Source: Terriglobia bacterium (GTDB lineage: Bacteria; Acidobacteriota; Terriglobia; Terriglobales; Acidobacteriaceae). Taken from it: 64,000 bases of DNA. The notes below the pieces were generated by a model. That model worked only from the letters and a program-made list of their open reading frames with translations. It was not told the origin of the DNA and ran no database searches. The stretch covers positions 1 through 64,000 of the forward strand of contig JAIQFO010000020.1 in the NCBI GenBank assembly GCA_020073215.1. Direction: 5' to 3'. A program made the position numbers and the translations under genes. Below are positions 10,629 to 36,432 of this stretch, in pieces (within the stretch, counting starts at the first letter, position 1; every line of letters starts with the position of its first letter).

Positions 10629-11507
10629 ATGCGTGTCACCTTGTTCGGTGCATCGGGACTGCTTGGCCATGAACTGGTTCACGAGTTGAGTGGTACCGGC
10701 CGGAACCGTGAGCAAGATCAGTTGACGGCGTTTTCCATCGAAGACGCCGATCTGCGCGATCACGCGCGCGTGCGCAACTTAGTTCGCGATTCCCGTCCCG
10801 AGTGGATTCTTCTGCTCGCCGCTTACACCGACGTGGATGGCTGCGAATCCAACCGCGATCTCGCCTTCGCGGTGAATTGTGACGGCGCCGTCAATGTGGC
10901 CGAAGCTGCGCGTGAAACCGGGTCGCGATTGCTGTTCGTGAGCACGGACTATGTTTTCGATGGCGGTAAACGCTCGCCTTACCAAACCAGCGATCCGAGA
11001 AATCCAACCAGCGTTTACGGTGAGAGTAAAGCCCGGGCCGAGCAGCGGCTTCTAGAGATTCTGCCCCAGGTCTGCATCGCCCGCACTTCGTGGCTCTTCG
11101 GCCACGCAGGCAAGTGCTTTCCAGCAACCATTCTGAAGCTGGCGTCAACCCGCCCCGAAATCTCCGTGGTGAACGATCAGCGGGGCAGCCCGACATTCAC
11201 CTGCGATCTCGCATCCGCTCTGGTCAAACTTTGCCGCGCGTCCGCGCAGGGAATCGTGCACGTCACCAACTCCGGCAACTGCACCTGGTACGAGTTTGCC
11301 ACGGAAATCGTTCGCCAGTCCGGATTGCCCGCCGCAGTCAAACCCGTGACCACCGCTGAATTCCCTCGCCCGGCGCGGCGTCCCGCCTACTCCGTTCTGT
11401 CGCCCGACAGCCTGCACGCGTACAACATTCACCTGCCGGACTGGCAGGATGCGTTGCGCCGCTATCTCGCGAGCGCGCAGGTTGTTCCTGCTCCCGCCGT
11501 CCCGTAG
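10629..11507 (+). CDS. rmlD: dTDP-4-dehydrorhamnose reductase
   Basis: A 292-aa extended SDR enzyme that reduces dTDP-4-keto-L-rhamnose with NAD(P)H in the last step of dTDP-L-rhamnose synthesis. The N-terminus has the nucleotide-binding GASGLLG. RmlD features follow: LLAAYTDVDGCESNRDLAFA, FVSTDYVFDGGKRSPYQTSD, the catalytic YGESK (Y-x3-K) and ARTSWLFGHAGKCF. Length is typical. It could feed rhamnose into the exopolysaccharide operon upstream, although the other rml genes are not in the window. Its promoter appears leaderless. Confidence 0.92.
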   Translation: MRVTLFGASGLLGHELVHELSGTGRNREQDQLTAFSIEDADLRDHARVRNLVRDSRPEWILLLAAYTDVDGCESNRDLAFAVNCDGAVNVAEAARETGSRLLFVSTDYVFDGGKRSPYQTSDPRNPTSVYGESKARAEQRLLEILPQVCIARTSWLFGHAGKCFPATILKLASTRPEISVVNDQRGSPTFTCDLASALVKLCRASAQGIVHVTNSGNCTWYEFATEIVRQSGLPAAVKPVTTAEFPRPARRPAYSVLSPDSLHAYNIHLPDWQDALRRYLASAQVVPAPAVP

Positions 11508-11575
11508 CGTCGACTTCTGCATCAGAGGCGCTACCAGACTCGCCCGAAGAAAACGGAATACGATCGCAGTGTTCG

Positions 11576-14500
11576 TCACCACGACCGCCCAACGTAAACA
11601 TTGAAAGTTCTCAGGACTCCATTCAGATTCGGATTCCAGTAATCTCTATAGCTGCCGTAGTAGAATATCAGCCCTCCTTCGAACTTGCGCGGAAACAAAT
11701 AGTAAACTTTCGATTGTCCAATCCATTGGGGAACGATCACCTGCGAGACCTGAGTCGCTCCCAGTTGCAGATTGCCAAGGGCCTGCTGGAAGAGCACCGG
11801 ATCGAAAGTATCCGACGAAATCAGCGACTGGTTGCCAAGCAGGGCCGCGTCGTTCGGATTCACATCGGGCCGCATTCCGCTGCGGGCCGAGTTATAGGTG
11901 AGCCTGAGATTGAGGCCCAAACGTTGCTTGACCGTGTAGGTGGACTCACCCCAGTAGGTCTGGCTGATCTGTTTGTAGGGGACAGCGGGTTCGTTTACCA
12001 CATATCCCACAGCGCTATCGTTCTGAAACGCCATGTACGTCGTCAGATTATTCTGTTGATACGAGTATCCCAACCCTAAGTTCCAGCTCGGCACAAACCG
12101 CAGCGTGGCACTAGCTGTGTCGGTGTAGAAACGGTTATGTCTCTGAAAGTCACTAGCGAGGCCTGTTCCATCCGATCTGAGGAGTGGGATGGCTGCAAAG
12201 GCGTTCTGCAGATTGATGCTGGTGTCGTTCGTGAAGACCAGCCATTTAGTCGGTGTAAGCGAGACATTTACGAATGCGCGGTTGTTGCTTTGCGGCACGA
12301 TTAAGTATCCAGGATTGTGAGTCCCCGTCCATTCATATCCGGCTCGTGCGCTCCAGTGGTCGCGATCGCGATAGCGGAGCGCCAGTCCGGTAGTGTTGCT
12401 AAATGAAGAAGGCACCACGGTCAGCAAGTCTGTGTTGTCAAAAGAGTAGATTTGCGGCCACAGCGAAGCATTGGAGCGGGTGATCCCGCTGCGCTTGTAA
12501 TGGGCTTCCACATCGAAGCCTTTTGGCAGCTCGTAGTCCAACCGCACGCCTTCCGAATGATTGTGGTACGAGACATTGCCGTACAGATTGTAGAAGGGCG
12601 TGAAGTTGTTGATGAGGTTCTGCTGATGGTAGTCGGCGGTCACGCGCAAGCGGTCAACCGGGCGCCAGTTCAGCGTCTCGTCCGAGTCAAACCCGTTCTG
12701 CGGGTTCCCGGTCAAGTTGTTACGTAAGCGGGTGTAATTCACGTTGCCGTTGAAACTGAGCTTAGGGGAAGCCGTCCAGTTCAAGCTCAAGCTGTCCGAC
12801 GACGACTGGTTCGGAGACGGAATATCCAGGAAGTAATTCCCGGCAGCAACAGGAGGTGGCACGGGTACCGGTGGAGGGGGCGGCTCATCCGCCGGCGTAA
12901 ACGGTCCTGCATAGGTTGCGATGGGAAATGTGAGCCGGTCATTGAAGCTAGTGAATTGGTGTTGGTACGTGAGCCGCACCGGACCCAGGTCAACATCCGC
13001 CCCTCCGGCAATATTTCGCGTCGTGTAGTTGACCGGCTGGAAATGGGAAGTGTAGTGACACAGTTCGCCGCAGGTGGTCGTGGTGTTCTCATCCAGGTAA
13101 GCGAGTTGGGTTACGCCGCTCCTCGCTTGCCAACCCCCTTTCACGAACAGATGGACCGGCAGCTTTGGCACTTTGAGTTGCGCATACGCATTGCCCAGTC
13201 TTCTCTTCACTCCAAACGTAGTGTGGGACGGGATGAGATCCGTGATGGGCAGGAGGTCCGGCGACATTACGCCCGCGTAGAAGGGGTAATTGTCTTGTTG
13301 TTGAACGAAGCTGCGTGTATCAAAGCCGGCCCGCAAATGTTTGCCAACGGTGAGCTGGGACGCGGCGGAGTAATCGTCCCCGGTGAGAACATTGCCTCGG
13401 GAAATAATGGTCACGTGGTTCTGTGGTGAGACATACGCGGTCGCGACATCGGCGCCCGCCGACTGTTGCAGGCTGTCATACTCGCCGACTCGGCCCAAGA
13501 AGCCCGAACCGTCGAGAAACCGGTAAGAGCCGGGAGTAATGGAATAAGCGGAAGAGGCAGCGCCCAACTGCGTCTCCGTGCCCGTGGGATCACTGTTCCC
13601 ACCCGGCATATTCCCGCCTGACATATTCCCACCTGACAACGGCGCGAGATATGCGGAAACTGCCGCGAGACCGCCGCTAGCGGCGCCAGCCCCATACACC
13701 GGCATGTGAGACGGAGCCGGATGTACGGAGGCCGACATCGGCGAATGGGAAGGTACCAGTGTTGCAGCGGTGTGCGCGGAGAGCGACTGAGAGGGCTGAA
13801 CAGGCACGCCATAAGGACCTTTGTCTACAAATCTGCTCCCGCCGCTCGGAGTGGCGACATCGCTGCCATGAATCGACCCATGGCAGTTGGTGCAACGATC
13901 AACCAGAGGAAGACCGGCTCCGTTGTGGTGGCCGGTATGACACTGCAAGCACAGTGCGGGAACACTCACGGACAACAGGTTGGTGTTTGGCGAGCCATGG
14001 GCGCTGTGACAGCTCATGCAATTTTCCGTGACCGGGGGGTGCTGGTAGGCAAACGGCCCGCGATACTGCGCATGGCAACCCAGACAGAGTTGATTCACGT
14101 TTGCCGTCCGCAGGTTGTTACCGGCCGCTCCGCCATGCGGGTCGTGGCAGTCGGCACAGCTCATCTTTCCTTCCCGCAGTGGGTGGTGATAAGGCAAGCT
14201 CATTTCTCCGCGCTGGCGTTGGTGACAGCTCAGGCAAGCATCATTGCCCTGCCATCGCGGCTGCATAATTGCTTTGCTTTCCGGCACGAGGTTCTCAACG
14301 GCGGCTACGCGGCCCGGAGTCATCACGTCGATCATCGCCTCGGCTTTGTGCCCGGCCTTGGCCCCGTAGGTGTGAGTCTGATGGCAATCAATGCAGCGGA
14401 CTTTATTCGACGCATGAGTGCCGGCCATCCAGTTCCGGATTTTGGCATCCTGTGCATGACAACTGAGGCACACGCCATTCGCATCTGTGGCGGATCGGTG

Positions 14501-14800
14501 GGAGAAGGAAATAATCTTCGCAATATCCCCGCCGCCCTCGACGTGCAGGCTGCCAGGACCGTGGCATGCTTCGCAATCAAGACCCTGCTGAGCATGAAAG
14601 GCATGCCGGAAATCGGTGGCGATATCGGAGTGGCATGCCGTGCAGGCCTCGGCACCGACCGGCGTGGCGCCTGGAATTTGCACATACTTTGCGAACGACG
14701 CCATCCCGTAGGCAGACTTTTTCTCTGCTGAGGATGGCGCTGGCGTGAACAGGAAAGAAGTGGAGAAGAAAACAGCGAGGAGCAAAGCGCGTCGCCGCAT
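11576..14800 (-). CDS. Decaheme c-type cytochrome fused to MtrB/PioB-like outer-membrane barrel
   Basis: A 1074-aa protein with a signal peptide (residues 1-25) and ten CxxCH heme sites at about residues 53, 76, 111, 136, 189, 215, 239, 261, 284 and 303, spaced as in DmsE/MtrA-type decaheme cytochromes. A low-complexity Ser/Pro/Gly-Asn linker (~310-415, with GGNM repeats) leads into ~650 residues of alternating-hydrophobic beta-strand sequence. The protein ends in VYVGRSW, and the terminal aromatic residue is the usual outer-membrane barrel signal. An additional CGELCH (C-x3-CH) lies near residue 577. In MtrAB-type conduits these two parts are separate proteins that carry electrons across the outer membrane. 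Here they form one chain. GGGAGG precedes the ATG at 14800. No extracellular MtrC-like partner is in the window. Confidence 0.88.
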   Translation of the reverse strand: MRRRALLLAVFFSTSFLFTPAPSSAEKKSAYGMASFAKYVQIPGATPVGAEACTACHSDIATDFRHAFHAQQGLDCEACHGPGSLHVEGGGDIAKIISFSHRSATDANGVCLSCHAQDAKIRNWMAGTHASNKVRCIDCHQTHTYGAKAGHKAEAMIDVMTPGRVAAVENLVPESKAIMQPRWQGNDACLSCHQRQRGEMSLPYHHPLREGKMSCADCHDPHGGAAGNNLRTANVNQLCLGCHAQYRGPFAYQHPPVTENCMSCHSAHGSPNTNLLSVSVPALCLQCHTGHHNGAGLPLVDRCTNCHGSIHGSDVATPSGGSRFVDKGPYGVPVQPSQSLSAHTAATLVPSHSPMSASVHPAPSHMPVYGAGAASGGLAAVSAYLAPLSGGNMSGGNMPGGNSDPTGTETQLGAASSAYSITPGSYRFLDGSGFLGRVGEYDSLQQSAGADVATAYVSPQNHVTIISRGNVLTGDDYSAASQLTVGKHLRAGFDTRSFVQQQDNYPFYAGVMSPDLLPITDLIPSHTTFGVKRRLGNAYAQLKVPKLPVHLFVKGGWQARSGVTQLAYLDENTTTTCGELCHYTSHFQPVNYTTRNIAGGADVDLGPVRLTYQHQFTSFNDRLTFPIATYAGPFTPADEPPPPPVPVPPPVAAGNYFLDIPSPNQSSSDSLSLNWTASPKLSFNGNVNYTRLRNNLTGNPQNGFDSDETLNWRPVDRLRVTADYHQQNLINNFTPFYNLYGNVSYHNHSEGVRLDYELPKGFDVEAHYKRSGITRSNASLWPQIYSFDNTDLLTVVPSSFSNTTGLALRYRDRDHWSARAGYEWTGTHNPGYLIVPQSNNRAFVNVSLTPTKWLVFTNDTSINLQNAFAAIPLLRSDGTGLASDFQRHNRFYTDTASATLRFVPSWNLGLGYSYQQNNLTTYMAFQNDSAVGYVVNEPAVPYKQISQTYWGESTYTVKQRLGLNLRLTYNSARSGMRPDVNPNDAALLGNQSLISSDTFDPVLFQQALGNLQLGATQVSQVIVPQWIGQSKVYYLFPRKFEGGLIFYYGSYRDYWNPNLNGVLRTFNVYVGRSW

Positions 14801-14941
14801 AGCGACCTCCCAAAAGTCGCCGTTCAGTCTAGTAGACTTACCGCAAGCATAATGTGATCCCCACTACATACATAGGTGATATATCTCTACTGCGGCAGTG
14901 ACGCTCCGCAGCCTCACGGTTAAGTCACCGCCCATCGGAGG

Positions 14942-15090
14942 CTGACCCGCCACCCTGAAGCAGGTGCGCCGTCCAACCCCCGCTGCCGTGGCTTATCCTT
15001 AAGTTTTTTTGAGGATTAATCGTGCCTTCTTTCGAGGATTAACCGTGAACCAGCGACGTTCTTGGATTCTGCTCGCTTCGCTCGGCTCGC
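14942..15090 (+). pseudogene. Truncated duplicate of the 5' region of the VPS10-like gene
   Basis: This stretch aligns with 17891-18013, the promoter, leader and first codons of the VPS10-like gene. Both share CTGACCCG near the start, a CGCTGC(C/T)GTG..TTATCCTTA block, TTCTTTCGAGGAT(T/C)AACCGTGAAC around the GTG start, and TGGATTCTGCTCGCTTCGCT in the signal-peptide codons. Similarity is lost after about 15080, just before the 3' end of the convergent patatin gene. The leader is itself partly duplicated here (two GAGGATTAA..GTG blocks at 15012-15046). The remnant would encode MNQRRSWILLASLGSR and then nothing recognisable. Confidence 0.65.
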
Positions 15091-15094
15091 GGTT

Positions 15095-16063
15095 TCAGTC
15101 CGCTGGCATGGGTGTTGGTCTCGCGACCAGAGCAGGCGTTTTTAGAGGGGCGGCCGTTTCCGCGGGAGCCGCCAGCCATTTGCGTACGTCCGGCAGCACG
15201 CGGCGCATCGCCAGTTCGCCCACGCGGATCAATTCGTCTGCGCGTTTGAAGTCGTCATAGTCAAAACCCGCTACATCGGGCTCGATTACGACATCGGCGG
15301 CGCTTCTCCACATGGAACTCATCATCTCCTGCGCGATGGCGAACGACTGCCCGATCACGTCAAAGTAATGCCGGGGCGCGCTCGTCTTCGACCACTGCCC
15401 TTTCAACTGCACGGCCAGCACGCGTTCCGCGCCCATTTCGCGGAGAGGAACTGTCGGCACGGGATAAGAGAGCATGCCATCCACCAACCAGCTCCCGCGA
15501 ATCTCCACCGGCAGGAACATCCCTGGATAAGCGCAACTCGCCCGCACCGGATCGATGATCGGACCGGAGGTAAAGACCGTTCCTTTCCCGGTGTTGAAGT
15601 CGGTGGCGGTCACGCCCAGAGGAATGCGCATTTCTTCAAAAGTCTGCACCTTCAAAGTTTGTTTCAGAAACGAGACCATGCGGTCGTTCGAGGCAAAGCC
15701 GTAACGCGAGAGCGTCCAGCGTGCGAAGGTTGTGAAGCGAACTTTGTGGGCGAGTTCTTCCAGTTCCGCGATCGTGAGTCCGCTGCAATACGCGGCGCCC
15801 ATGATTGCGCCCACACTGGTGCCAGCAATCATGCGAACCGGGACGCCTTCTTCTTCGAGGACTTTGAGAACCCCAATGTGCGCGATGCCGCGAGCAAAGC
15901 CGCCGCCCAAGGCGACACCAATGGCGGGGATACGCTTCGCCTCGGCTCCATTTGGTCGGCGGGAAAGTCCGCGGCCGAAGGCTTGCACAGACCGGATAAC
16001 CCTGTCCAGACTCTTCATCGGAACCCCACGTTCCGGGTTTGCCGGGGGGCGCAAACCCCACAT
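15095..16063 (-). CDS. Patatin-like phospholipase (RssA-type)
   Basis: A 322-aa patatin-family serine hydrolase with a Ser-Asp dyad. The oxyanion hole is GVALGGGFARGIAHIGVL, the nucleophile elbow is GTSVG (IAGTSVGAIMGAAYCSG) and the catalytic Asp lies in SWLVDGMLSYPVP. The usual DG(G/A) is DGM here. Family members release fatty acids from membrane lipids. No signal peptide is seen, so it is probably cytoplasmic or membrane-associated. An alternative start is the ATG at 16018 (MKSLDRVIR), which would remove 15 residues. The stop lies next to a truncated duplicate of the VPS10-like gene start. Confidence 0.88.
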   Translation of the reverse strand: MWGLRPPANPERGVPMKSLDRVIRSVQAFGRGLSRRPNGAEAKRIPAIGVALGGGFARGIAHIGVLKVLEEEGVPVRMIAGTSVGAIMGAAYCSGLTIAELEELAHKVRFTTFARWTLSRYGFASNDRMVSFLKQTLKVQTFEEMRIPLGVTATDFNTGKGTVFTSGPIIDPVRASCAYPGMFLPVEIRGSWLVDGMLSYPVPTVPLREMGAERVLAVQLKGQWSKTSAPRHYFDVIGQSFAIAQEMMSSMWRSAADVVIEPDVAGFDYDDFKRADELIRVGELAMRRVLPDVRKWLAAPAETAAPLKTPALVARPTPMPAD

Positions 16064-16310
16064 CCTACAAATGTTAAGATGCTATAAATCCGCTCCCGGA
16101 TACAAGGCACGTTTGTGCTATCTGGCAGTTACGGGAGATTCCACCTGTTAGTACCCGATGTAATCTCCCGATCTACAGTCGTGACTAAGGCCCTGTAATG
16201 CTGATAACTTACAGTCCTAACATGCAGTGGACGCCCGGCCGCCAGGTAAGGGGTATATCCAGGGCACCACGAAACCGGTGAAACAAGAATCACTGGCCAG
16301 AAGTGCAGCG

Positions 16311-17888
16311 ATGAATCGAACCGACATGTGGCGCCGCATCGACGCCCATCCCAAAAGGTGGGACATGCTGGTTGTAGGCGGGGGCGCGACCGGCGTAGGG
16401 GTTGCGATCGATGCCGCGGCGCGCGGCTACGATGTGCTGCTGCTCGAGCAGAGCGACTTCGGCAAAGGCACGTCGAGTCGCAGCACCAAGCTGGCACACG
16501 GCGGCGTGCGCTATCTGGAGCAGGGCAATATCGGGCTGGTCATGGAGGCGCTGAACGAGCGGGGTTTGCTCCTGCAAAACGCGCCCCACATCGTGCACGA
16601 TCGTGCCTTCGTCGTGCCGAACTACGATTGGTGGGAGGCTCCATTCTATGGTCTTGGCCTGAAGCTCTATGAGTTGCTGGCTGGCAAATATGGTTTTGGC
16701 GCCTCACGCATTCTTTCGAGGGAAGAGACTCTTGAACATCTACCCACCCTCAAGACCGAAGGCCTGCGCGGCGGCGCCGTTTACTACGACGGACAATTCG
16801 ACGACGCGCGCCTGCTCATCCACATGGTGGCCACGGCTTTCGAGCAAGGCGCCACGTTGCTGAACTATGTCGAAGTCACGGGGCTGACGAAGGACGCTCA
16901 GGGATTTGTCGATGGTGTCAGCGCCCGCGATGTAGAAACCGGCAACCAGTTCCGTGCCGCCGCCAAAGTTGTGGTCAACGCCACCGGCGCTTTCAGCGAC
17001 TTGCTTCGGCGGAAGGCCGAACCCGGCGCCACGTCGATGATCGCGCCCAGCCAAGGCATTCATCTGGTCTTCGATTCCAGCTTCTTGCGGGGTGAAAGCG
17101 CGGTCATGGTTCCTCACACCAGCGATGGCCGTGTGTTATTCGCAATTCCATGGCACGGCCACACACTAGTCGGGACCACGGACACGCCCATCGCGGCCGC
17201 CACGCTAGAGCCGGTCGCCATGGACGAGGAAATCGATTTTATTCTCGCGACTGCCGGCCAATACCTGACCAAAGCCCCTACGCGCGACGACGTGTTGAGC
17301 GTGTTCGCCGGCATTCGGCCGCTGGTGCGCGCTGCGGGCGCAGCCAGCGGCGTTGTCAGGTCCGCGGCGCTGGCGCGCGATCACGTGATCCACATCGACC
17401 GCTCCGGTCTGGTTACCGTCTGCGGCGGAAAATGGACGACCTATCGGCATATGGCCGAGGATTGCGTCGATCAGGCGGCCACGCTCGCGCAGTTGCCCGA
17501 CAAGCCCTGTGCGACCCACCAGTTGCACATTCACGGCTTTCACCCTGCAGCGAAAGGATTCGGCTCGCTGGCAGTCTATGGTTCAGACGCGGACGAGATT
17601 CGCAAGCTGATTGAGACTCATCCTGGACTCGGCGAACCGCTGCACGCGGCATTGCCCTACGTGAAGGCGGAGGTCGTCTGGGCGGCGCGACACGAAATGG
17701 CGCGCACCGTGGAAGACACGCTCGCCAGGCGCACGCGCGCCCTGTTCTTGAATGCGCGCGCAGCCATCGCCATGGCGCCCGCCGTGGCGGACTTGATGGC
17801 TGCGGAACTGGGCTGGGACGAGGTCGCCCGGACGAAGCAGCTGGCTGCGTTTCGTGACGTCGCTTTGAACTACGTACTCCATCGCTGA
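16311..17888 (+). CDS. glpD: Aerobic glycerol-3-phosphate dehydrogenase
   Basis: Predicted 525-aa FAD enzyme that oxidises sn-glycerol-3-phosphate to dihydroxyacetone phosphate at the inner membrane and passes electrons to quinone. The FAD-binding N-terminus is DMLVVGGGATGVGVAIDAAA, followed by the GlpD signatures GKGTSSRSTKLAHGGVRYLE and VRAAGAASGVVRSAALARDH. The C-terminal DAO_C domain includes EVVWAARHEMARTVEDTLAR. The frame is open from 16227, but the ATG at 16311 fits the family N-terminus (MNRTDMWRRIDAHPKRWDML). The 247 bp upstream (16064-16310) hold no other gene. No glpK or glpF neighbour is visible. Confidence 0.92.
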   Translation: MNRTDMWRRIDAHPKRWDMLVVGGGATGVGVAIDAAARGYDVLLLEQSDFGKGTSSRSTKLAHGGVRYLEQGNIGLVMEALNERGLLLQNAPHIVHDRAFVVPNYDWWEAPFYGLGLKLYELLAGKYGFGASRILSREETLEHLPTLKTEGLRGGAVYYDGQFDDARLLIHMVATAFEQGATLLNYVEVTGLTKDAQGFVDGVSARDVETGNQFRAAAKVVVNATGAFSDLLRRKAEPGATSMIAPSQGIHLVFDSSFLRGESAVMVPHTSDGRVLFAIPWHGHTLVGTTDTPIAAATLEPVAMDEEIDFILATAGQYLTKAPTRDDVLSVFAGIRPLVRAAGAASGVVRSAALARDHVIHIDRSGLVTVCGGKWTTYRHMAEDCVDQAATLAQLPDKPCATHQLHIHGFHPAAKGFGSLAVYGSDADEIRKLIETHPGLGEPLHAALPYVKAEVVWAARHEMARTVEDTLARRTRALFLNARAAIAMAPAVADLMAAELGWDEVARTKQLAAFRDVALNYVLHR

Positions 17889-17972
17889 AGACTGACCCGG
17901 GAACCTCTAGCGCCTGCCCTGTCCAATCCCCGCTGCTGTGATTTATCCTTAGCATTCTTTCGAGGATCAACC

Positions 17973-20900
17973 GTGAACAAACAGCTCTTGTGGATTCTGC
18001 TCGCTTCGCTCTGCCTCTTGCTTTTCCCTTTCGCGCTTTCCGCCCAGCCCTATGACCCGGCGATGTACCAGGACCTTCACTGGCGCATGATTGGCCCGTT
18101 TCGCGCGGGTCGCACCGTGGCGATTTCGGGCGTTCCAGGCCAGCCAAATGTTTTTTATATGGCGCCGAACAACGGCGGAGTCTGGAAGACGACGGACTTC
18201 GGCCGCACCTGGAATCCGATCTTCGATGGTCAGCCCTCCGGTTCAATCGGTGCCCTGGCCGTGGCGCCGTCAAGTCCAAGCACCATCTATGTCGGCAGTG
18301 GTGAAGGCCTGCGTCGCCCCGATCTTTCCGTAGGCGACGGTATCTACAAGTCAACCGATGCGGGCCGCACCTGGCGGCATCTCGGACTCCGCGACGCCCA
18401 GCAGATTGCCTCCATCCTCGTCGATCCCAAAGATGCAAACCGGGTTTTTGTTGGCACACTCGGACATCCCTATGGTCCGAATGCCGAGCGTGGCGTGTAC
18501 CGCTCGCTCGACGGCGGCGAGACGTGGCAAAAAGTTCTTTATAAGGATGAAAACACCGGTGCGATCGAACTGGTGTTCGATCCGCGAAACTCGCACGTGA
18601 TCTTTGCCGACATGTGGGCCTCGCGCCGGCCGCCGTGGACAACCGGCAACAGCTACGATGGCCCGGGCAGCGGCCTCTACAAATCCACCGACGGCGGCAA
18701 CCACTGGCGGCAGATCACAAAAGGCTTGCCCAGTGAGGCCGATAAGCTCGGACGCATCGGCCTGGCCGTTTCGCCGAGCAATCCCGATCGCATGTACGCC
18801 TGGGTCGACGCGCGGGGTGACGCGCAGATGCCCGGAGGCATCTACCGTTCCGACGATGCCGGTGAAAGCTGGCTGCTCGTGAACACCGAAGATAGAGTTT
18901 GGGGACGCGGCTCCGACTTCGCCTGCGTCCGCGTCGATCCACGAAATAAAGATGTGATCTATGTGGCCAACACTTCCACCTACCGATCCACCGACGCCGG
19001 CAAGAACTTCACGGCCATCAAAGGCGCGCCCGGAGGCGACGACTATCACACCATCTGGATCAATCCCGAAAACCCCGACATCATCGCCATGGGCGTAGAT
19101 CAGGGCGCGACCATCAGCGTCAACGGCGGCCAATCCTGGAGTTCCTGGTACAACCAGCCCACCGCGCAGTTCTATCACGTAATCACTGACAACCAGTTCC
19201 CCTACTGGGTTTATGGTGGCCAGCAGGAAAGCGGCTCCGTCGGCACCGCCAGCCGCAGCGACTTCGGCGAGATCACCTTTCGCGATTGGACCACGGTCGG
19301 AACCGAAGAGTACGGCTACGTCGCGCCCGATCCCCTGCATCCCAATCTGATTTATGGCGGCAAGGTTACGGTGTTCGACCGCAACACGGGTCAAACGCGC
19401 GACGTTTCGCCGGTGGTTCTGCACACCGGCCAATATCGCTTCAATCGCACCGCGCCCTTGATTTTCTCGGCGGCGGATCCGCACGTGCTCTATCTCGGCT
19501 CGAACGTCCTGTTTGAAACCCGTGACGGCGGCAACAGTTGGCAGATCGTCAGCCCCGACCTGACCCGCGAAACTCCGGGCGCTCCAGCCACTCTAGGCCC
19601 GTTTGTCGAGGCCGATCCGGCGAAGGGCAAGCATCGCGGCGTGATCTATTCGATCGCTCCGTCGCCGAAGGACGCAAACCTGATCTGGGTCGGCACCGAC
19701 GATGGCGTCATTCAAGTAACGCAAGACGGCGGCAAGAACTGGCGGAACGTGACGCCGCCAAAATTGACTCCCTGGAGCAAGCTGGCGCAGATGGACGCGT
19801 CACATTTCGATACCCCAACTGCCTATGCCGCAGTGAACCGCTTCCGCCTCGATGATCTGCATCCCTATATTTATCGCACGCACGACGGCGGCAAGAGTTG
19901 GCAGAAGATCGTAACCGGCTTGCCCGAGAACGAGCCCGTCAACACGGTGCGGGAAGATCCAGAGCGCAAGGGACTGCTTTTTGCCGGAACCGAACGCACC
20001 GTCTATGTGTCCTGGGATGACGGCGACCATTGGCAGTCGCTGAAAATGAATCTGCCGCCGACGTCGATCCGCGACCTCGTCGTGCATCATGACGATGTTG
20101 TGGTGGGCACTCACGGCCGCTCCTTCTGGATCCTCGACAACGTTACGCCGCTGCGCCAGTTCAGCCCGGAAATGGCGGCGGCTCCCGCGCATCTTTTCGC
20201 GCCGCAGCTAACCTATCGCGTGCGCCGCAATAACAACACCGACACACCTCTGCCGCCGGAAGAACCTGCCGGACAGAATCCGCCGGATGGCGCGATGATC
20301 GACTACTGGCTCCAGACCAAGAACGCGGCGGCCTCGGCGGTCACGCTCGAAATCGTCGATGCCGCGGGTCACGCCGTGCGCCATTTCTCAAGCGACGACA
20401 AGCCCGAACCGGTGAACGCAAAAGAACTGAATGTTCCGACCTACTGGGTGCGTCCGGCACGAACCTTGTCGGCCGCGCCTGGAATGCATCGGTTCATCTG
20501 GAATCTGACGTATCCCGAACCCGACGTGCTCTCGCATGACTACCCGATCTCCGCCATCTACCACGACACGCCGCGCTATCCGCTCGGCGCCACCGTGTTG
20601 CCCGGAGCGTACAAAGTTGTGCTCACAGTTGGCGGCAAGAGCTACACACAGCCGCTGAACATTCGCATGGATCCGCGGGTGAAGACCTTGCCGGAAGACC
20701 TGGCCAAGCAATTCGACCTCGACCGGAAGATTGCCGGCGCGCTTCACCAGGACTACGAAGCCCTGCAACAGGTGCGCAGCCTGCGAGCGCAGTTGAAATC
20801 GCTCACTGGACATATTCCCGATGCTGTCACAAAAACAGCGTCCGAACTGGAAGGGAAAGCCGCGGCCATCGAAGGCGAAGAAGGCGGCTACGGCACGCGT

Positions 20901-21206
20901 TACTTGAGCACGCCCGAAGGCCGCAGCCTGGCTCGCCTCAACGGCGGCTTCAACGCACTCGTCAGCGCTCTCGATACCGCCGACGCCGCGCCGGCGACCC
21001 AGCAAACCGCGATGTTCGTGGAACTGGAGAAGGCGCTGGAGCAGCAGTTGTCCGCGTGGGGCCAGCTCAAGTCGAAAGATATTCCGGAACTGAACGAGCA
21101 ACTGAAGAAAGCAGGATTGCCGCCGATCGATTTGCAGAAGGCGATTCCGGGCGCAGCCGATGCGGCCGAGACAACCTCGCAGGACCGGGACAGAAACGAG
21201 GAGTAG
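17973..21206 (+). CDS. Secreted VPS10/sortilin-like BNR (Asp-box) repeat protein
   Basis: A 1077-aa exported protein. The GTG start at 17973 follows CGAGGAT and opens a signal peptide (MNKQLLWILLASLCLLLFPF, cleavage near ALSAQ). It contains about eleven Asp-box motifs (S/T-x-D-x-G-x-x-W), for example TTDFGRTW, STDAGRTW, SLDGGETW, STDGGNHW, SDDAGESW, TRDGGNSW, TQDGGKNW and THDGGKSW, marking two beta-propellers of the sortilin/VPS10 type over residues ~35-720. The last 300 residues form a separate domain ending in a helical stretch. Such proteins are common and multi-copy in acidobacteria and are often called glycosyl hydrolases without proof of activity. Catalytic function is unassigned. Confidence 0.85.
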   Translation: MNKQLLWILLASLCLLLFPFALSAQPYDPAMYQDLHWRMIGPFRAGRTVAISGVPGQPNVFYMAPNNGGVWKTTDFGRTWNPIFDGQPSGSIGALAVAPSSPSTIYVGSGEGLRRPDLSVGDGIYKSTDAGRTWRHLGLRDAQQIASILVDPKDANRVFVGTLGHPYGPNAERGVYRSLDGGETWQKVLYKDENTGAIELVFDPRNSHVIFADMWASRRPPWTTGNSYDGPGSGLYKSTDGGNHWRQITKGLPSEADKLGRIGLAVSPSNPDRMYAWVDARGDAQMPGGIYRSDDAGESWLLVNTEDRVWGRGSDFACVRVDPRNKDVIYVANTSTYRSTDAGKNFTAIKGAPGGDDYHTIWINPENPDIIAMGVDQGATISVNGGQSWSSWYNQPTAQFYHVITDNQFPYWVYGGQQESGSVGTASRSDFGEITFRDWTTVGTEEYGYVAPDPLHPNLIYGGKVTVFDRNTGQTRDVSPVVLHTGQYRFNRTAPLIFSAADPHVLYLGSNVLFETRDGGNSWQIVSPDLTRETPGAPATLGPFVEADPAKGKHRGVIYSIAPSPKDANLIWVGTDDGVIQVTQDGGKNWRNVTPPKLTPWSKLAQMDASHFDTPTAYAAVNRFRLDDLHPYIYRTHDGGKSWQKIVTGLPENEPVNTVREDPERKGLLFAGTERTVYVSWDDGDHWQSLKMNLPPTSIRDLVVHHDDVVVGTHGRSFWILDNVTPLRQFSPEMAAAPAHLFAPQLTYRVRRNNNTDTPLPPEEPAGQNPPDGAMIDYWLQTKNAAASAVTLEIVDAAGHAVRHFSSDDKPEPVNAKELNVPTYWVRPARTLSAAPGMHRFIWNLTYPEPDVLSHDYPISAIYHDTPRYPLGATVLPGAYKVVLTVGGKSYTQPLNIRMDPRVKTLPEDLAKQFDLDRKIAGALHQDYEALQQVRSLRAQLKSLTGHIPDAVTKTASELEGKAAAIEGEEGGYGTRYLSTPEGRSLARLNGGFNALVSALDTADAAPATQQTAMFVELEKALEQQLSAWGQLKSKDIPELNEQLKKAGLPPIDLQKAIPGAADAAETTSQDRDRNEE

Positions 21207-21662
21207 GCTTTTGTAGCTCGTGTCCACAGTTTTCTCCGGGGCTCAGGTGGTTGGAATGGGCTTGGACCCCTCTGGTCGCGGTCTTTCAGAATGAAAGACT
21301 TAGTGTGTGAGAGGCGCTAGGTCTTTGAGAAATAAGGACTTAGTTGTAAAGTATTTACAAATCAATAGCTTAGGTCACATTTCAGGTTTGTTATTAGGTT
21401 CGTTTCCCGCTAGGTCTTTGAGAAATAAATACTTTAGTGGTCATGAGGGGCTGGCGGCGCGCGCAAGAATCCGCGAGAGTGGGCGGACAGGAGTGTCCTC
21501 GCCACACCGTCCAAGAGGGCCGAGATTAGGTCGAATTTCAGGTTTGTTATTAGGTTCGTTTCCCGCCAGGTCTTTGAGGAATAAATACTTTAGTGGTCAT
21601 GAGGGGCTGGCGACGTGCGCAAGAATCCGCGAGAGTGGGCGGGCAGGGGTGTCCACGCCACA
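21207..21662. repeat. Gene-free region with 156-bp-period tandem direct repeat
   Basis: A unit beginning TTCAGGTTTGTTATTAGG at 21381 recurs at 21537 (period 156 bp), near-identical over ~125 bp. It includes AGGTCTTTGAG(A/G)AATAAATAC, TTTAGTGGTCATGAGGGG and GCAAGAATCCGCGAGAGTG. A partial third copy (AGGTCTTTGAGAAATAAGGA) lies at 21318-21340. The region separates the VPS10-like gene from the convergent cca gene. The open frame across it (21307-21783) only translates the repeat twice and is not regarded as a gene. Confidence 0.85.
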
Positions 21663-23060
21663 CTACCCCGGAAACTCCCGCAGCACAAATTCCATCGCCG
21701 CCTCGCGCGATGCGAGTCGACCTTCGAGTTGCGCGTCCTCGACTGCGGTTAGGATTTCCTTGAAGTGCGGACCGGGCTCATAACCTGCGTCGATCAGGTC
21801 GCGGCCGGTGATCAGCGGAGCCGGACGAATTGCCTCAGGCGGGAACGAGCGTAGCTGCTCTTGCGAGTATTCGTAGGAGTCGAGTTGGCCGTGGCTGGAA
21901 AGACAGTCGATGCGGTGCAACTCCAGGTGTTCGTCGAAGGCAGGCAAGCGGAGAAACTTTTTCAGCGTGGATTGCTTCATGCGCTCGACGTCGGCAAAGC
22001 GCATGTGATTCGCGACCAGCGCCAGAATTTGCTCGGTTTCGTCATTGGAGAAGCGCAGGCGACGGCAGATTTCGGCGGCCATCTTTACCCCAACTTCCAC
22101 GTGCCCATCGAAGCGGATGCGGTCGGGCGCGACACGGAAGGTTGGCGGCTTGCCCACGTCGTGCAGCAGGGCTCCCCAGGCCAGCGTCTTTGACACGGAA
22201 CCGGAAACACCGGGCTGAAGTTTCTCCAGCAGAAGCAGCGTGTGCACGAAGACGTCACCTTCGGGATGGAATTGCGGCGGCTGCTCCACCCCTTTCATGG
22301 CGGCGATTTCCTTCAGAACTTCTGGCAAGAGGCGGCTCGAATCCAGCAGCTGAAAGGCGCGGCGGGCGCGGCCTTCGGTGAGCATCTTCGTCAGCTCTTC
22401 GCGCACTCGTTCACAGGAGACCTGGTGAATTTGAGGCGCTAACTTTTGAATTGCTGCCATGGTTGCTGGCTCGATCGTGTAATCGAAGCGCGCCGCAAAA
22501 CGCACGGCGCGGAGCATACGCAGTTTATCTTCGGCGAAGCGGCGTTCGGGATCGCCGATGGCGCGCACGATTCCGGCCTTCAGGTCGTCGCGGCCTCCGA
22601 CGAAATCCAGAATCCCGTTGGTTGTCCTATCAAACACCATGGGATCGAGCATCATGCCGTTGATGGTGAAATCGCGGCGCTGCGCGTCTTCGCGCGGGTC
22701 TTTGCTGAAGCGAACTTCGTCGGGATGACGGCCGTCGGAGTAGCCGACGTCCGAGCGGAACGTTGCGACCTCGACGATCGCAGCGCGACGGGCGGGAGCC
22801 TGCCCTGAGCTTGTCGAAGGGGCGCCCGTCTCTCCACTATATTGTGGGACCAGCACGACTCCAAACTGCTCCCCGACGGCGAACGTCTGCGGAAAGATTT
22901 GCATGACCTGATGCGGAGTCGCATCGGTGGCTACGTCGTAGTCGGCGGGCTCGCGACGGAGGAGAAGATCGCGGACACATCCACCGGCGAAGTAGGCCTG
23001 GTGTCCGCGCTCGCGCAGGGCGCGGACGATTTCGGCGGCGTGTTGTTTGGCGTCCTTCAT
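21663..23060 (-). CDS. cca: CCA tRNA nucleotidyltransferase / poly(A) polymerase family
   Basis: A 465-aa class II tRNA nucleotidyltransferase with an HD-type C-terminal domain. The head domain has YFAGGCVRDLLL (the GGxVRD loop) followed by ADYDVATDATP (catalytic DxD). Next come RRDFTINGMMLDP, the neck with RRFAEDKLRMLRAVRFAARF, and an HD motif LLHDVGKPPTFRV. It adds or repairs the 3' CCA of tRNAs. Near residues 78-92 the reading frame contains an in-frame insertion, GAPSTSSGQAPARRA, that is encoded by a dispersed short repeat and is not expected in the family. The protein ends at 21663, right beside a tandem repeat region. Confidence 0.9.
   Translation of the reverse strand: MKDAKQHAAEIVRALRERGHQAYFAGGCVRDLLLRREPADYDVATDATPHQVMQIFPQTFAVGEQFGVVLVPQYSGETGAPSTSSGQAPARRAAIVEVATFRSDVGYSDGRHPDEVRFSKDPREDAQRRDFTINGMMLDPMVFDRTTNGILDFVGGRDDLKAGIVRAIGDPERRFAEDKLRMLRAVRFAARFDYTIEPATMAAIQKLAPQIHQVSCERVREELTKMLTEGRARRAFQLLDSSRLLPEVLKEIAAMKGVEQPPQFHPEGDVFVHTLLLLEKLQPGVSGSVSKTLAWGALLHDVGKPPTFRVAPDRIRFDGHVEVGVKMAAEICRRLRFSNDETEQILALVANHMRFADVERMKQSTLKKFLRLPAFDEHLELHRIDCLSSHGQLDSYEYSQEQLRSFPPEAIRPAPLITGRDLIDAGYEPGPHFKEILTAVEDAQLEGRLASREAAMEFVLREFPG
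22798..22822. repeat. Short dispersed repeat inserted in cca
   Basis: The string CCTGCCCTGAGCTTGTCGAA and its following GGG match the short interspersed element also seen, as a variant (CCTGCCCTGAGCGAAGTCGA), at 28124-28147. It lies in frame inside cca and supplies the residues STSSGQA. The translation of this repeat is a familiar sign of insertion into a coding sequence. Confidence 0.6.
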
Positions 23061-27352: not shown

Positions 27353-28078
27353 ATGAGCACAGCCAGCGTAAGAACGCCTCCGCCCGAACCCTCGCACACT
27401 CGCCTGGCACAGCGAACGGTGGAAGCCTGCGAACTTGCTCGCGAAGCCGCAGCCATTGCGGCCGAGGGAATTGCCACCGGTTCCATGTCCCGCCTGAACG
27501 CCATCCGGCAGTGTGAAAAAGAGCTCGATGCCATTGATGTGGAAGTAGATATCGGCGTGACCTCGACCATCACCCACGTCCCGGAGGCCGAGACCGGGCA
27601 ACTGCTGGCGTGCATGAAAGTCATGATCGGACTCGAGCGCATTGGGGACCTGCTATTGAGCTTTGCCACCAGCGCGCAGGCTGCGGGCGCCCGCCTCGAT
27701 TCGGAGGATGCGCGCGACTTGACCCACATGGCCACGGTACTGGAGAAAATGCTGGCTGACGTCGGACAGTCTTTCTCCCAGAAGGATGTCAAGAAGGCCA
27801 TCGATGTGCTTCGTGCCGACGCCGAGATGGACCGCTTGCGCAACATCATTTTCCTACGCCACATCGAGAATCCAGAGAACGTCGCGCACCACTCCAGTCT
27901 GCAGGTTATTTTCATGACACAGTCTCTCGAGCGCGCCGGCGACCATGCCAAGAACCTGGCCGAAGAAGTCTGCCATTTTGTCAGTGGACGCAGCATTCGC
28001 CACCTGCTCATGGCCTACGACAAACCAAAAGAGCAGATGTTCATCGAATGGCTGCGGCACAAGGACGACAAGTCGTAG
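27353..28078 (+). CDS. phoU: PhoU-like phosphate signalling regulator
   Basis: Predicted 241-aa all-helical PhoU-domain protein. The two PhoU half-repeats are visible: MKVMIGLERIGDLLLSFA and VIFMTQSLERAGDHAKNLAE, each with the E-R-x-G-D metal-binding signature. PhoU links the Pst transporter to PhoR and keeps the Pho regulon off at high phosphate. AAGGAGGGTGG ends about 9 nt before the ATG at 27353. A GTG at 27341 lies inside the ribosome site and is rejected. It follows phoB-phoR by 196 bp, and its 3' flank is the insertion point of the casposon. Confidence 0.88.
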   Translation: MSTASVRTPPPEPSHTRLAQRTVEACELAREAAAIAAEGIATGSMSRLNAIRQCEKELDAIDVEVDIGVTSTITHVPEAETGQLLACMKVMIGLERIGDLLLSFATSAQAAGARLDSEDARDLTHMATVLEKMLADVGQSFSQKDVKKAIDVLRADAEMDRLRNIIFLRHIENPENVAHHSSLQVIFMTQSLERAGDHAKNLAEEVCHFVSGRSIRHLLMAYDKPKEQMFIEWLRHKDDKS

Positions 28079-28196
28079 CAGCGTCCGCACGTGTTCATGT
28101 GGTGGAGCGCCGGGTTTCTCGAGCCTGCCCTGAGCGAAGTCGAAGGGTCCCGTCGGAAGGGGACGCATGGCTCTCCCCAAGCAAATCAGCAATCCC
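28079..28196. other. phoU 3' flank, no gene
   Basis: This short non-coding stretch holds one copy of the CCTGCCCTGAGCGAAGTCGA dispersed repeat (28124-28147) and runs into the left target-site repeat of the casposon. Confidence 0.6.
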
Positions 28197-28210
28197 CTCC
28201 AGCCCTTGAC
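28197..28210 (+). repeat. Left 14-bp target-site duplication (CTCCAGCCCTTGAC)
   Basis: The 14-mer is identical to 41602-41615 and abuts the left terminal inverted repeat directly. It is in direct orientation at both ends, while the adjoining 36-bp repeats are inverted, as expected for a target duplication. Casposons are known to make duplications of 14-15 bp. Confidence 0.9.
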
Positions 28211-28246
28211 GGGGTAGTACACTTCGGGAAAAATTGTCGACCCCCC
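28211..28246 (+). repeat. Left terminal inverted repeat of casposon (36 bp)
   Basis: The repeat begins GGGGTAGTACACTTCGGGAA and ends in TCGACCCCCC. Its reverse complement is identical base for base to 41566-41601. The match is lost directly inside (CTCTG here versus TCCGC on the other end). Confidence 0.92.
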
Positions 28247-28388
28247 CTCTGTTAACGACGGAATTTGACCTAGGCCGGGGCGCGCTGGCAAGTGAGGTGG
28301 GCAAGTGCTATTTCTAACGACCTCATGAGGTTGAAAAGCTGATATAAGGGTGGGCCTAGGTGTGGAAGGTACGCAGCAGCGGTGTGCG

Positions 28389-30638
28389 CTAGTCGGCAGG
28401 GCGCACCGTGTGCTCGGTTCCTTCACGCGCTTTGGGCAGCGCTTTTACTGGCTGAGCAAATGGTTGTGCTATCTCAGCTCCGGTCGCTTCTTTGTAGATA
28501 ACCTTGAAGTTAGGATCCAGTTCTTGGCGGGAAATGTGGGCCAACGTCAGAACCACAACTAGGCCTGGCGCAAAAAGGTGTCCGTTTCCCGCACGGTCCC
28601 TCATCACGCGATACGCGGCGGATTCTAACAATTGCTCGCATTGTGGACCGGCTTGCTTGCAGTCTGCTAAAGCTTTGCTGCTGGTAACTATAACCGTGGC
28701 TGCAAACCAGTCAAGAAAAGTGCGGCGATACCATGACTCATTGGGTGCCGCTCCAGTATCTTTGACTCGGAGTACTATCTCTTTGGCGGTCGACACTTGG
28801 GATACCTCATTGATCACGCGGACTAACTCCAAGAAGCCCAGTTCCTCAGCAATTTGTCGCACCTTTTGCAGCGGCTCAACAGTAGAACGTTCATCTAATT
28901 GACTTAAAAGCACCTGCTGCAAGTGCCAAGCTTTAGAGTACTGTGTATACCAAGGTTCGGGCAATTGCTGAATGGCCCATGCTATCGCGCGGCTTAATGG
29001 CTCCGAAGGAAGCAAGTGTTTATCAGCTATCAACGTGTTGACCAACCACCGACGTACTTCGGGAGATGAACCGTATCTTTCTGCGATATTTCGTTGAAGA
29101 ACATTTGTGTCCTCCGCCGTCGAAACCAACGCCATTAGCTGGTCACTCTCTGCTGAGATAAGGGATTCCTCGGGCAGATCGGCAACTGACTCGTTAAAGT
29201 AGGAAAATGTCCAGTCCTTCGTTAGTTTATGTTCTTTGTCCAATCTGACGGGTTTACTGTGAAATGCAAGAACGCCCGCCCAATTAGGATACTCAGCCTG
29301 ACGCTGGAAAAAAGTTCGTCGACATTCGTCGTACAGCCAGATTTCAACTGGGGACGATAAATTGGCCTTCGCGATCGGCTGGGCACCATGCGCAGCTGGC
29401 CAGTGTTGCATCGCTTGATTCATAAAACTCAGTGACTGAGCTTCGCCTGCGGTGCCATTCAGTATGGCTGAAGACACTTTCGCCAGCAGGACGCGATTCC
29501 GGGCGCGTTCAATCTCAGACGGAGCATACTCGTACGCTGATTCCAAGGTATCAACAGCAGTTTCCAAGTCGCCGCGTGCTGCGGCGGAAAGAGCAACATC
29601 CAAATAAGATACATACAATGCTGATCTGCTGCCCTCCACCGGATCGTAGATAACCGCCTGCCAAGGCAATCCTGGCTTATCAATCGCCTTGTGCACATAC
29701 CTCACAATCGAAACGTACAGAACCCCAAACGCTACGGTGACGTTTCTTTTCTGAGGGCTTGCATTAACCTCCACTGTAGGTCCGTAATAAGCAAGACGGA
29801 GTTCCTCTGCCGGGCTAACGCTACCAGTGCTGGAGACCGTATGTATTACGGCATCTTTCAACGGAATGAGGATTGCGTGCTGCCCGTAATCCTCACGCCT
29901 TTCAACAAAAATGATCTGGTGGAATAGTGTCTGAACGATTCGCTTGATTATTTTCGAATTGCGAACTGGATCTGTAATGTAGAAAACGTGGCCGAGAGTC
30001 TTCCCCGAGCCAATTTGGAGTACTTCGGCCTTCAGTGGGCTTATTGTGTCCGACGAATAGCAGTAGAGCGGTTTTCCTAAAACAACAAACAAGCCAAGCG
30101 CTGCCCAAGCAATTCCTGCCAGCACAATCACAATGCTCGCAATGACAAAGTGGCGCCGACCTTGGTGAAAGCCAAACCAGCCCAACGCTATGGATGAGCA
30201 TATTGCAATTGCTGCCGGAACTGACGTGAGTAACCTAAAGGGAAAGAAAACCAACCCTGCAATCACGTTTAGAATAACGATAGCAACAGGCTGCAGGGCC
30301 AACTTCACGAAGGTGAGGAGCATCCCCCCGCGTGATTTGTCCGCTTCGACCTGCTCGATCCCAGAATGTGAAATCGTGTATGTTTTTGCGTCTGCGCTCT
30401 CCGTTGTTCCGGGAATAGTCCAGATCCTAGGATGCTCGACGATTTCCCTTACCAGACCCTTGAGCACAAGGTAATCCAGATTGCTGGCTACTTTACGGTC
30501 ATCGTACCCTTTCTTCTTCAGCCCCTCTGACAGCTGATTGATCGCAAGTCCAGCGTTCGCCGCAGTTGCTTCTTGTTGATGGATTGCGTACAGATGCCGC
30601 AGTATTGCAACCCTGATAGCATCGTTTGGGTTCGCCAT
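28389..30638 (-). CDS. Winged-helix membrane protein of unknown function (casposon cargo)
   Basis: A 749-aa protein I do not recognise. Residues ~1-100 look like a winged-helix domain (AILRHLYAIHQQEATAANAG, KKGYDDRKVASNLDYLVLKG, TYTISHSGIEQVE). Three transmembrane helices follow at about 114-135, 138-156 and 163-186. The remaining ~560 residues are soluble and partly helical, with a TPR-like stretch near 350-400 (AARGDLETAVDTLESAYEYA). The layout, a cytoplasmic DNA-binding-like head, a membrane anchor and a large further domain, suggests sensing or effector activity at the membrane. It is the leftmost gene in the element and may be cargo with a defence role, which is inference from context only. 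Confidence 0.8.
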   Translation of the reverse strand: MANPNDAIRVAILRHLYAIHQQEATAANAGLAINQLSEGLKKKGYDDRKVASNLDYLVLKGLVREIVEHPRIWTIPGTTESADAKTYTISHSGIEQVEADKSRGGMLLTFVKLALQPVAIVILNVIAGLVFFPFRLLTSVPAAIAICSSIALGWFGFHQGRRHFVIASIVIVLAGIAWAALGLFVVLGKPLYCYSSDTISPLKAEVLQIGSGKTLGHVFYITDPVRNSKIIKRIVQTLFHQIIFVERREDYGQHAILIPLKDAVIHTVSSTGSVSPAEELRLAYYGPTVEVNASPQKRNVTVAFGVLYVSIVRYVHKAIDKPGLPWQAVIYDPVEGSRSALYVSYLDVALSAAARGDLETAVDTLESAYEYAPSEIERARNRVLLAKVSSAILNGTAGEAQSLSFMNQAMQHWPAAHGAQPIAKANLSSPVEIWLYDECRRTFFQRQAEYPNWAGVLAFHSKPVRLDKEHKLTKDWTFSYFNESVADLPEESLISAESDQLMALVSTAEDTNVLQRNIAERYGSSPEVRRWLVNTLIADKHLLPSEPLSRAIAWAIQQLPEPWYTQYSKAWHLQQVLLSQLDERSTVEPLQKVRQIAEELGFLELVRVINEVSQVSTAKEIVLRVKDTGAAPNESWYRRTFLDWFAATVIVTSSKALADCKQAGPQCEQLLESAAYRVMRDRAGNGHLFAPGLVVVLTLAHISRQELDPNFKVIYKEATGAEIAQPFAQPVKALPKAREGTEHTVRPAD

Positions 30639-30821
30639 ACGCTAAGGATTATCCCACTTCCCATTCTTGTGAGAGACAAGAATATGCGTTGAGACCCTCC
30701 CGGAGGCGCGTTCATCTTCCCGAGTTTTCCCGATCTGGACAGTGAATCTATATCAACCCATCAAGCAGCTGCATTGATAGCGGCCAGGTAGCACAAGCTC
30801 TACGTGTGTTCTGTGTCAGTT
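30639..30821. other. Intergenic spacer inside the casposon
   Basis: These 183 bp between the polymerase remnant and the membrane-protein gene must contain the latter's promoter on the minus strand. I see no clear boxes and no gene. Confidence 0.4.
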
Positions 30822-32979: not shown

Positions 32980-33053
32980 CAGCTCTCAGTGACTGCTGCG
33001 CAGTAAGTGAAACTCGACTGACAGTTCCGGGGATCGGGCGCAGAGTCACCTAA

Positions 33054-33461
33054 TCATAACGCTTGCGCTTTACGGCGCAGGGACGCCGCTCTCGCTTTAT
33101 CAGCGGAGACGATTAACTCCGTGGGGGTATTAGGTGCGCGTTGCAGCAGCTCCGCCTGGGACTCCTCATCTTCAGCCATGAGAAGTAGATATCGACGCAA
33201 GGCCTCGCGCATCGATTCCTTGGTTCGATGCTTGCCGTTCTTTGTGAGGCCCTTCGTATCCCGTCTCATCTCCAATTTCCGATGACAATTCCGGCAAACC
33301 GCTCGCTCAAATTCCTCGTCCAATTCGTGGGAAACAGGATGATCCATTTCGAAACAGAAAATGTCCGACTCTTCGCAATAGAAACAGCGGGTCGCGTACC
33401 CCACGTCCTTCCGGCGTTTCTCGATGCGCCGAGCTCGCAGGATGGGGTACGGATTGCTCAC
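33054..33461 (-). CDS. HNH nuclease-like protein (casposon)
   Basis: A 135-aa protein with an HNH/zinc-finger core: CFYCEESDIFCFEMDHPVSH followed by FERAVCRNCHRKLEMRRD. The two C-x2-C pairs and the DH..NCH pattern fit a treble-clef HNH endonuclease. The C-terminal half is helical and charged. The start is GTG, overlapping the stop of the upstream gene by 4 bp (GTGA), and polB follows 74 bp downstream, forming one minus-strand operon. HNH proteins are recurrent casposon genes of unclear role, possibly processing of ends or the target. Confidence 0.78.
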   Translation of the reverse strand: MSNPYPILRARRIEKRRKDVGYATRCFYCEESDIFCFEMDHPVSHELDEEFERAVCRNCHRKLEMRRDTKGLTKNGKHRTKESMREALRRYLLLMAEDEESQAELLQRAPNTPTELIVSADKARAASLRRKAQAL

Positions 33462-34045: not shown

Positions 34046-34127
34046 AAACTGCAACCTCTCTCTCTCCAAGCGATCTCGTATTTGTGCGTACTATCAGATT
34101 ATGACCGCTTATTTTCCTACCAAGCCT

Positions 34128-34133
34128 ATTATA
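34128..34133 (-). promoter_or_regulatory. -10 box (TATAAT) for the casposon polB operon
   Basis: A consensus TATAAT reads leftward in the AT-rich gap 34046-34269. Its start site would lie near 34121, about 76 nt before the ATG at 34045. The -35 is not clear. The gap also holds short GTAGTAG/GATAGATA direct repeats (34155-34180). Confidence 0.5.
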
Positions 34134-34232
34134 TGGGGTGTATGAGATAAGTCATTGTAGTAGTTGTAGATAGATACAGATCTTCCAGTAATTAGACGCG
34201 CGTAATTATGTAGCTTTTTCTGGATAGTTACG

Positions 34233-34238: not shown

Positions 34239-34269
34239 AAGGCTGGGAGCGATCCAATATTCCGCAGAT

Positions 34270-36425: not shown

Positions 36426-36432
36426 ACGTGGC

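Follow-up and report, generated by a model that had tools for sequence, protein, structure and literature searches.

Known electron conduits of the MtrAB type consist of two or three proteins. In MtrAB, as described in the available text of PMC7198977, MtrA has its N terminus in the periplasm and its C terminus toward the outside, the hemes form a chain of 80 Å, and MtrB is a barrel of 26 strands, the first four of which are shorter, and has a helix in the loop that joins strands 1 and 2. Geobacter GSU2203 and GSU2204 were raised 2.68- and 2.36-fold with hematite and 1.65- and 1.53-fold with magnetite (PMC4070692). Fusions of the Cyc2 type carry a single heme, as the original prediction for the present locus had stated and as the accessible parts of PMC9040806 and PMC10734462 agree.

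The DNA analyzed here (the window, 64,000 nucleotides from a Terriglobia bacterium) had been predicted to encode both halves of an MtrAB-type conduit in one polypeptide at 11576-14800. The frame was confirmed: it is uninterrupted and runs from 14800 to 11576 on the minus strand, a strand that the original prediction did not give, and the ATG at 14800 opens a single 1074-residue protein whose C terminus reads ...GRSW. In the features below, split relatives are those with the two parts in separate genes.

11576..14800, minus strand: whole fused gene, 1074 aa plus stop, with 18 fused relatives
14726..14800, minus strand: signal-peptide-like N terminus, residues ~1-25, judged by eye from the sequence
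13880..14644, minus strand: decaheme MtrA/DmsE-like domain, ten CXXCH, residues 53-307, from the TIGR03508 match and conserved non-motif His
13547..13819, minus strand: linker, residues 328-418, rich in P, A, S, G and T, in place of the stop, gap and second signal-peptide-like start of split relatives
11579..13564, minus strand: MtrB-like 26-strand outer-membrane barrel, residues 413-1074, C-terminal Trp, from the predicted model and fold matches
13055..13072, minus strand: CGELCH, residues 577-582, probable eleventh heme site in the outer loop between strands 7 and 8, from conservation and topology
12959..12961, minus strand: His614, putative distal ligand of the eleventh heme, in 25/25 fused and split barrels
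12557..12565, minus strand: His746 and His748, putative distal ligands at the outer end of a strand, each in 24/25 fused and split barrels

The ten CXXCH motifs start at residues 53, 76, 111, 136, 189, 215, 239, 261, 284 and 303 and thus fall, as predicted, within the first 310 residues. Among 2000 shuffled versions of the protein, the average count of CXXCH was 0.02 and the maximum 2; the six frames of the rest of the 64 kb together hold six scattered CXXCH, and within the window no CXXCH gene lies near the fused gene. The protein scores 211.7 bits against the NCBIfam profile TIGR03508 of MtrA/DmsE decaheme cytochromes (cut-off 192.2), whose ten CXXCH it shares, and 232.4 bits against NF041028, the GSU2203 decaheme family, which is below that family's cut-off of 325. 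Among solved structures, the cytochrome half comes closest to 6r2q chain A (E 1.7e-39), in an entry entitled as the Mtr complex; although the molecule name listed for this chain is that of another protein, we take it to be MtrA. Twelve His residues outside the motifs are conserved in at least 24 of 25 cytochrome rows. By its TIGR03508 score the N-terminal part falls in the MtrA/DmsE group.

The barrel half matches NF041027, the GSU2204 barrel family, over residues 416-633 (E 4.5e-17, 62 bits against a cut-off of 350), and by this match it reads as a distant relative of that family. The window protein has no match to TIGR03509 (MtrB/PioB) at E 1, and this profile matches one of 36 aligned barrels at 1e-5. 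The full-length AlphaFold model is poor (pLDDT 56.1, pTM 0.47, residues 141-413 below 50), so a wire within the barrel is not visible in it, and AlphaFold models contain no hemes; a Foldseek search with this model nevertheless ranked MtrB first. The model was too poor to place the cytochrome. The barrel was then folded alone from the 36-row alignment, which gave fair to good confidence (pLDDT 81.5, pTM 0.72) and 26 main strands by our own count, four short and then 22 long, with a short helix before strand 2; an extra strand piece at model positions 14-21 was counted with strand 1. The predicted model thereby has the 26 strands and short first four of the MtrB/PioB type. VIA-align placed 6r2q_B first (Z 21.1, 3.7 Å over 550 residues, 10% identity), the next row having Z 17.6 at 23 Å, and Foldseek matched the barrel alone to the same chain with E 5.3e-20, TM 0.67 and rmsd 7.2, the next match being at E 1.1e-8. 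The beta-barrel-like C terminus with an aromatic end, proposed from the letters of the sequence, was thus borne out as a predicted 26-strand barrel ending in Trp; a model without a barrel, which would have spoken against the proposal, was not obtained. With TIGR03508 over its cut-off and MtrB far ahead of all other fold matches, the reading of the two halves as MtrAB-type is likewise supported.

A proposed conduit and its partners in the genome

We consider it likely that the protein is an MtrAB-type conduit made of a single chain, with its outermost heme built in, and that one protein would thus do the work of both MtrA and MtrB. After export, the decaheme domain would lie as a wire within the 26-strand outer-membrane barrel of its own C-terminal half, with the first hemes in the periplasm and the tenth near the outside, and the long flexible linker would carry the chain from the wire's outer end back to the periplasm, where strand 1 starts. 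Held by CGELCH in an outer loop, an eleventh heme would exchange electrons with heme 10 and face the outside in place of a separate MtrC. Since the C terminus of MtrA faces outward in MtrAB, the linker would have to come back through or beside the wire, which we counted against the proposal; the 60-111 residues of the linkers in the fused rows are ample for a membrane of 40 Å. The strongest form of the proposal, a natural eleven-heme wire in which the decaheme domain passes through its own barrel, the linker crosses the membrane again within the lumen, the CX3CH heme serves as the terminal exit replacing MtrC, and one gene makes the outer membrane conductive, could in our judgment equally well be right or wrong.

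Contig C50 of the same genome (L104:646-2133) encodes a 496-residue NapC/NirT-type protein that is ImcH-like, having one CX3CH (CGKTCH) and five CXXCH, and its gene is followed by a frame with five CXXCH. The protein fits most of the ImcH description in the available text of PMC6295460, with two clear membrane stretches by hydropathy against the three expected, and reaches no NCBIfam cut-off. Electrons may be pictured as passing from quinol to the ImcH-like protein, a periplasmic cytochrome, the fused conduit and the outside. It is possible, if doubtful, that the conduit works inward and takes up electrons, as in an iron-oxidizing organism with PioAB or MtoAB, a reading that differs on direction alone. 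The two matches to TIGR03507 (MtrC/OmcA) in the genome are weak and below cut-off, which would suit uptake, as PioAB and MtoAB are described in the accessible part of PMC5566968 as likewise lacking an extracellular cytochrome; however, the nearest studied relatives, GSU2203 and GSU2204, come from Geobacter and respond to iron oxides (PMC4070692), and the presence of the ImcH-like protein also argues for outward flow.

The genome holds two further decaheme genes, at L030:1531-2550 (contig C8) and L031:2791-3726 (contig C107). Neither is fused, and each is adjoined by a long CXXCH-free frame that possibly encodes a PioB-like barrel.

The heme motif within the barrel

CGELCH near residue 577 had been put forward as a possible eleventh heme site near the outer surface, and this prediction has been strengthened by the conservation of the site and by its assignment, through strand topology, to an outer loop. 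Cys581 and His582 occur in all 25 fused and split barrels, rows that were not selected by motif, and Cys577 occurs in 24, the exception being L079. CX3CH, an unusual spacing for a heme motif, is found in 12 of the 19 fused rows (CGELCH, CGQLCH, CGDTCH, CGAQCH and others), which form one group (SH-aLRT 99), and the other seven fused rows and all six split pairs have CXXCH at this site. Constant Cys, Cys and His with varying residues between them would be expected of a covalent heme site.

In the 36-barrel alignment the CXXCH of 11 GSU2204-type rows aligns on residues 577-582, so that the single heme motif of NF041027-type barrels and that of the window protein share one place, with CX3CH instead of CXXCH in the latter. 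Because these 11 rows were chosen by hand from frames picked by the motif C..CH[VI], the unselected count is that of the 30 loci read, where 29 of 30 separate GSU2204-type barrels have exactly one CXXCH and one (L064) has none. By these counts, a putative heme motif within the barrel is not special to the fusion.

Counting strands from the periplasmic C terminus, loop 158-170 of the barrel model (residues 570-582, including CGELCH) lies on the outer side, and the turns that flank it (131-137 and 192-196) are short, as periplasmic turns are; the position of the motif is thus predicted from topology rather than measured. His614, His746 and His748 are present in 25, 24 and 24 of the 25 fused and split barrels, respectively, whereas the corresponding counts among the 11 GSU2204-type rows are 0, 0 and 1. 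In the model these residues lie on strands, at the outer side or toward it, and we regard them as candidate distal ligands.

It seems unlikely that the barrel Cys-Cys-His forms a disulfide or metal site instead of holding heme, a reading that would be compatible with a fused ten-heme conduit. The loop has low confidence in the full-length AlphaFold model (residues 571-581 below 50), the distal ligands are candidates only, and CX3CH is termed "atypical" (PMC6295460). Against this, 24 of 25 fused and split barrels retain all three residues, as CXXCH outside the CX3CH group, the His would be superfluous for a disulfide, and NCBI names the GSU2204 family as CXXCH-containing. A membrane-adjacent CX3CH is also described for ImcH homologues in the available text of PMC6295460.

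In the exceptional L079 (genome G406), a split pair, the cytochrome lies in two frames and the barrel lacks the first heme Cys; the pair is possibly decaying.

Linker, relatives and locus

The linkers of 18 fused rows are 60-111 residues long, contain 53-71% P, A, S, G and T and one to nine charged residues, and are poorly conserved. In all seven pairs compared, linker changes are commonest at third codon positions; this excess, together with the variability of the linkers, indicates that the linker is translated and loosely constrained. A hydrophobic segment that might be a relic of an old signal peptide exceeds shuffles only slightly (Fisher 52.9 on 36 degrees, from rows that are not independent), and we make no claim for it.

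The one translated chain might be cut within the linker in the periplasm to give an ordinary two-protein MtrAB-like complex, the fusion serving only to fix the ratio of the parts. Such cutting would suit a long, poorly conserved linker with few charges, and two proteins suffice in the split relatives, whose barrel starts with a signal-peptide-like stretch of its own, but the linker alignment, judged by eye, has no conserved cleavage motif, and we hold cutting to be quite improbable. The calculated mass is ~114 kDa plus hemes for one chain and ~32-38 and 74 kDa for two separate parts.

A search for the same fusion in other genomes, suggested in the original prediction, gave 18 further distinct fused ORFs. 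After removal of repeats between searches, 19 full-length fused ORFs including that of the window are known (1040-1101 aa for the other 18; L072 and L073 are almost the same), all of them having ten CXXCH in their cytochrome parts, and two more (L081, L082) are cut at contig ends in genome G440. With the barrel as query, matches were found in 16 of 250 genomes of the window's taxonomic family (ten open frames longer than 1000 aa, four barrel-only frames of 682-730 aa and two fragments), and a draw of 396 genomes from the phylum gave seven matches, four of them fused. The whole-protein search of 61 genomes (the own genome and relatives) returned the window, two fused genes (G041, G053), five split pairs and a short barrel end in G018. 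A named-genome scan yielded 17 loci, all titled as Acidobacteria-type MAGs, one of them as Candidatus Sulfotelmatobacter, a genus assigned by NCBI to Terriglobales, Acidobacteriota. Genome G440 holds several copies or pieces of the fused gene (L067, L081, L082, L083).

Six split pairs (L094-L099) have a cytochrome ending in ...GGSKFIDK and a stop (TAG in five), followed by a barrel with its own start and, in those read, a signal-peptide-like stretch after it; a split pair is carried by contig C37 of the same-genus genome G008 and by PKUV01000021.1. Of 297 genomes of the phylum, 67 match the NF041027 profile, 27 of them over the cut-off, and no fused frame occurs among the best 30 loci.

Trees were quick ones, calculated without bootstrap and, for the barrel, with the heme motif X-masked. 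GSU2203-type frames were included if they had exactly ten CXXCH, a neighbor present in 26 of the 28 GSU2204-type loci used, and GSU2204-type barrels if they had one C..CH[VI] (28/28); L052, L064, the partial frames L074 and L081-L083 and the split pair L115 were left out of both trees, and the broken L079 cytochrome was left out of the cytochrome tree. In the barrel tree a single group comprises the 19 fused rows (SH-aLRT 99), with seven split rows nearest and the GSU2204-type rows outside; the closest relatives outside the fused group, some of the same genus, thus have the two parts in adjacent separate genes. Relatives that were consistently split, with a stop in the linker, would have counted against the original prediction; this was not the outcome, as 18 are fused, and the split pairs L094-L099 stand closest outside the fused group. 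In the cytochrome tree, fused and split pairs form one group (100), the fused L075 is not separable from the split pairs, and the fused rows need two changes; given the placement of L075, fusion may have occurred twice, or once with a subsequent split.

Several further candidates for fusions were rejected. L109-L114, picked as long frames with weak NF041027 matches that might be fusions of other origin, are stop-to-stop frames of 946-1126 aa without CXXCH, each with a separate ten-CXXCH frame in its region; L115 has decaheme and barrel in separate frames, and L116 has a barrel end and no CXXCH frame longer than 280 aa.

That an assembly slip or recent stop loss joined two genes, as congeners with two genes and a TAG after ...GGSKFIDK might suggest, is next to inconceivable in view of 18 other fused ORFs in one barrel-tree group, in-frame linkers of differing length with a third-position excess, and the own start of the second gene in split pairs.

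The fused gene lies between an RmlD-type gene (10629) and a sortilin-like gene (17973), with a patatin-like gene and an FAD dehydrogenase gene of the glycerol-3-phosphate oxidase type between it and the latter. Among 17 loci of the genus with the RmlD-type gene, nine have the sortilin-like gene 0.2-1.4 kb further on, with no match to a fused or split conduit between, two (the window and G004) have a conduit, and six have neither within the available stretch; G007, G008 and G011 carry a split pair on contigs other than that of the RmlD-type gene. The RmlD-sortilin junction (window 10629-21206) is thus a gain site. In G004 a split pair lies between the same two genes, and three flanking proteins are 88-92% identical to those of the window, whereas the barrels are 42-47% identical. 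Such similar flanks and dissimilar barrels imply separate gains of the fused and split forms at one site, or replacement, and either history suggests horizontal spread and like function.

Elsewhere in the window, an intergenic ORF at 21307-21783 has a translation that repeats a block of ~50 residues twice (SLRNKYFSGHEGLA...) and looks like a non-coding repeat, and positions 28001-42000 have a GC content of 0.51-0.57 against ~0.60 on both sides, possibly an island.

Comparison with known systems

Word searches of the open literature, covering titles and the starts of abstracts, found no report of a decaheme-barrel fusion. The words "fused" and "fusion" are absent from the available text of PMC4245776 and PMC8805035, and in that of PMC13264449 and PMC13212322 "fused" occurs once each, in reference to Cyc2. 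For connecting other bacteria to electrodes, a conduit encoded by one gene would be a simple component, and it would show how the wire and the barrel come together. These Acidobacteriota join the candidates for electron exchange with minerals or humics, and the barrel heme offers a testable idea of how MtrC-less conduits pass electrons to the outside.

The split pairs L094-L099 resemble the window gene in having the same two parts in the same order, a ten-CXXCH cytochrome and one barrel CXXCH at the same site; they differ in being two genes, with a stop after the cytochrome and a second signal-peptide-like start, and their barrels are 44-48% identical to that of the window. Geobacter GSU2203-GSU2204 and relatives (NF041028, NF041027) likewise combine a decaheme cytochrome with a barrel containing one CXXCH, but none of 30 loci read is fused and the 11 aligned barrels are 13-18% identical; some GSU2204-type relatives are selenoproteins by NCBI family name. 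Shewanella MtrAB (6r2q) shares the decaheme wire and the 26-strand barrel, whereas it is made of two chains and, as described in the available text of PMC7198977, carries hemes in MtrA and MtrC alone, with MtrC outside. Cyc2 also joins cytochrome and barrel in one chain, but it has one heme and a small barrel (PMC9040806 and PMC10734462, in their accessible parts), in contrast to the ten plus one motifs of the window protein, whose ten CXXCH precede a predicted 26-strand barrel. Both parts, and the CXXCH of the GSU2204 barrel through its NCBIfam name, are already known; new, as far as our searches go, are the CX3CH group and the stable union of both parts in one chain with ten plus one heme motifs.
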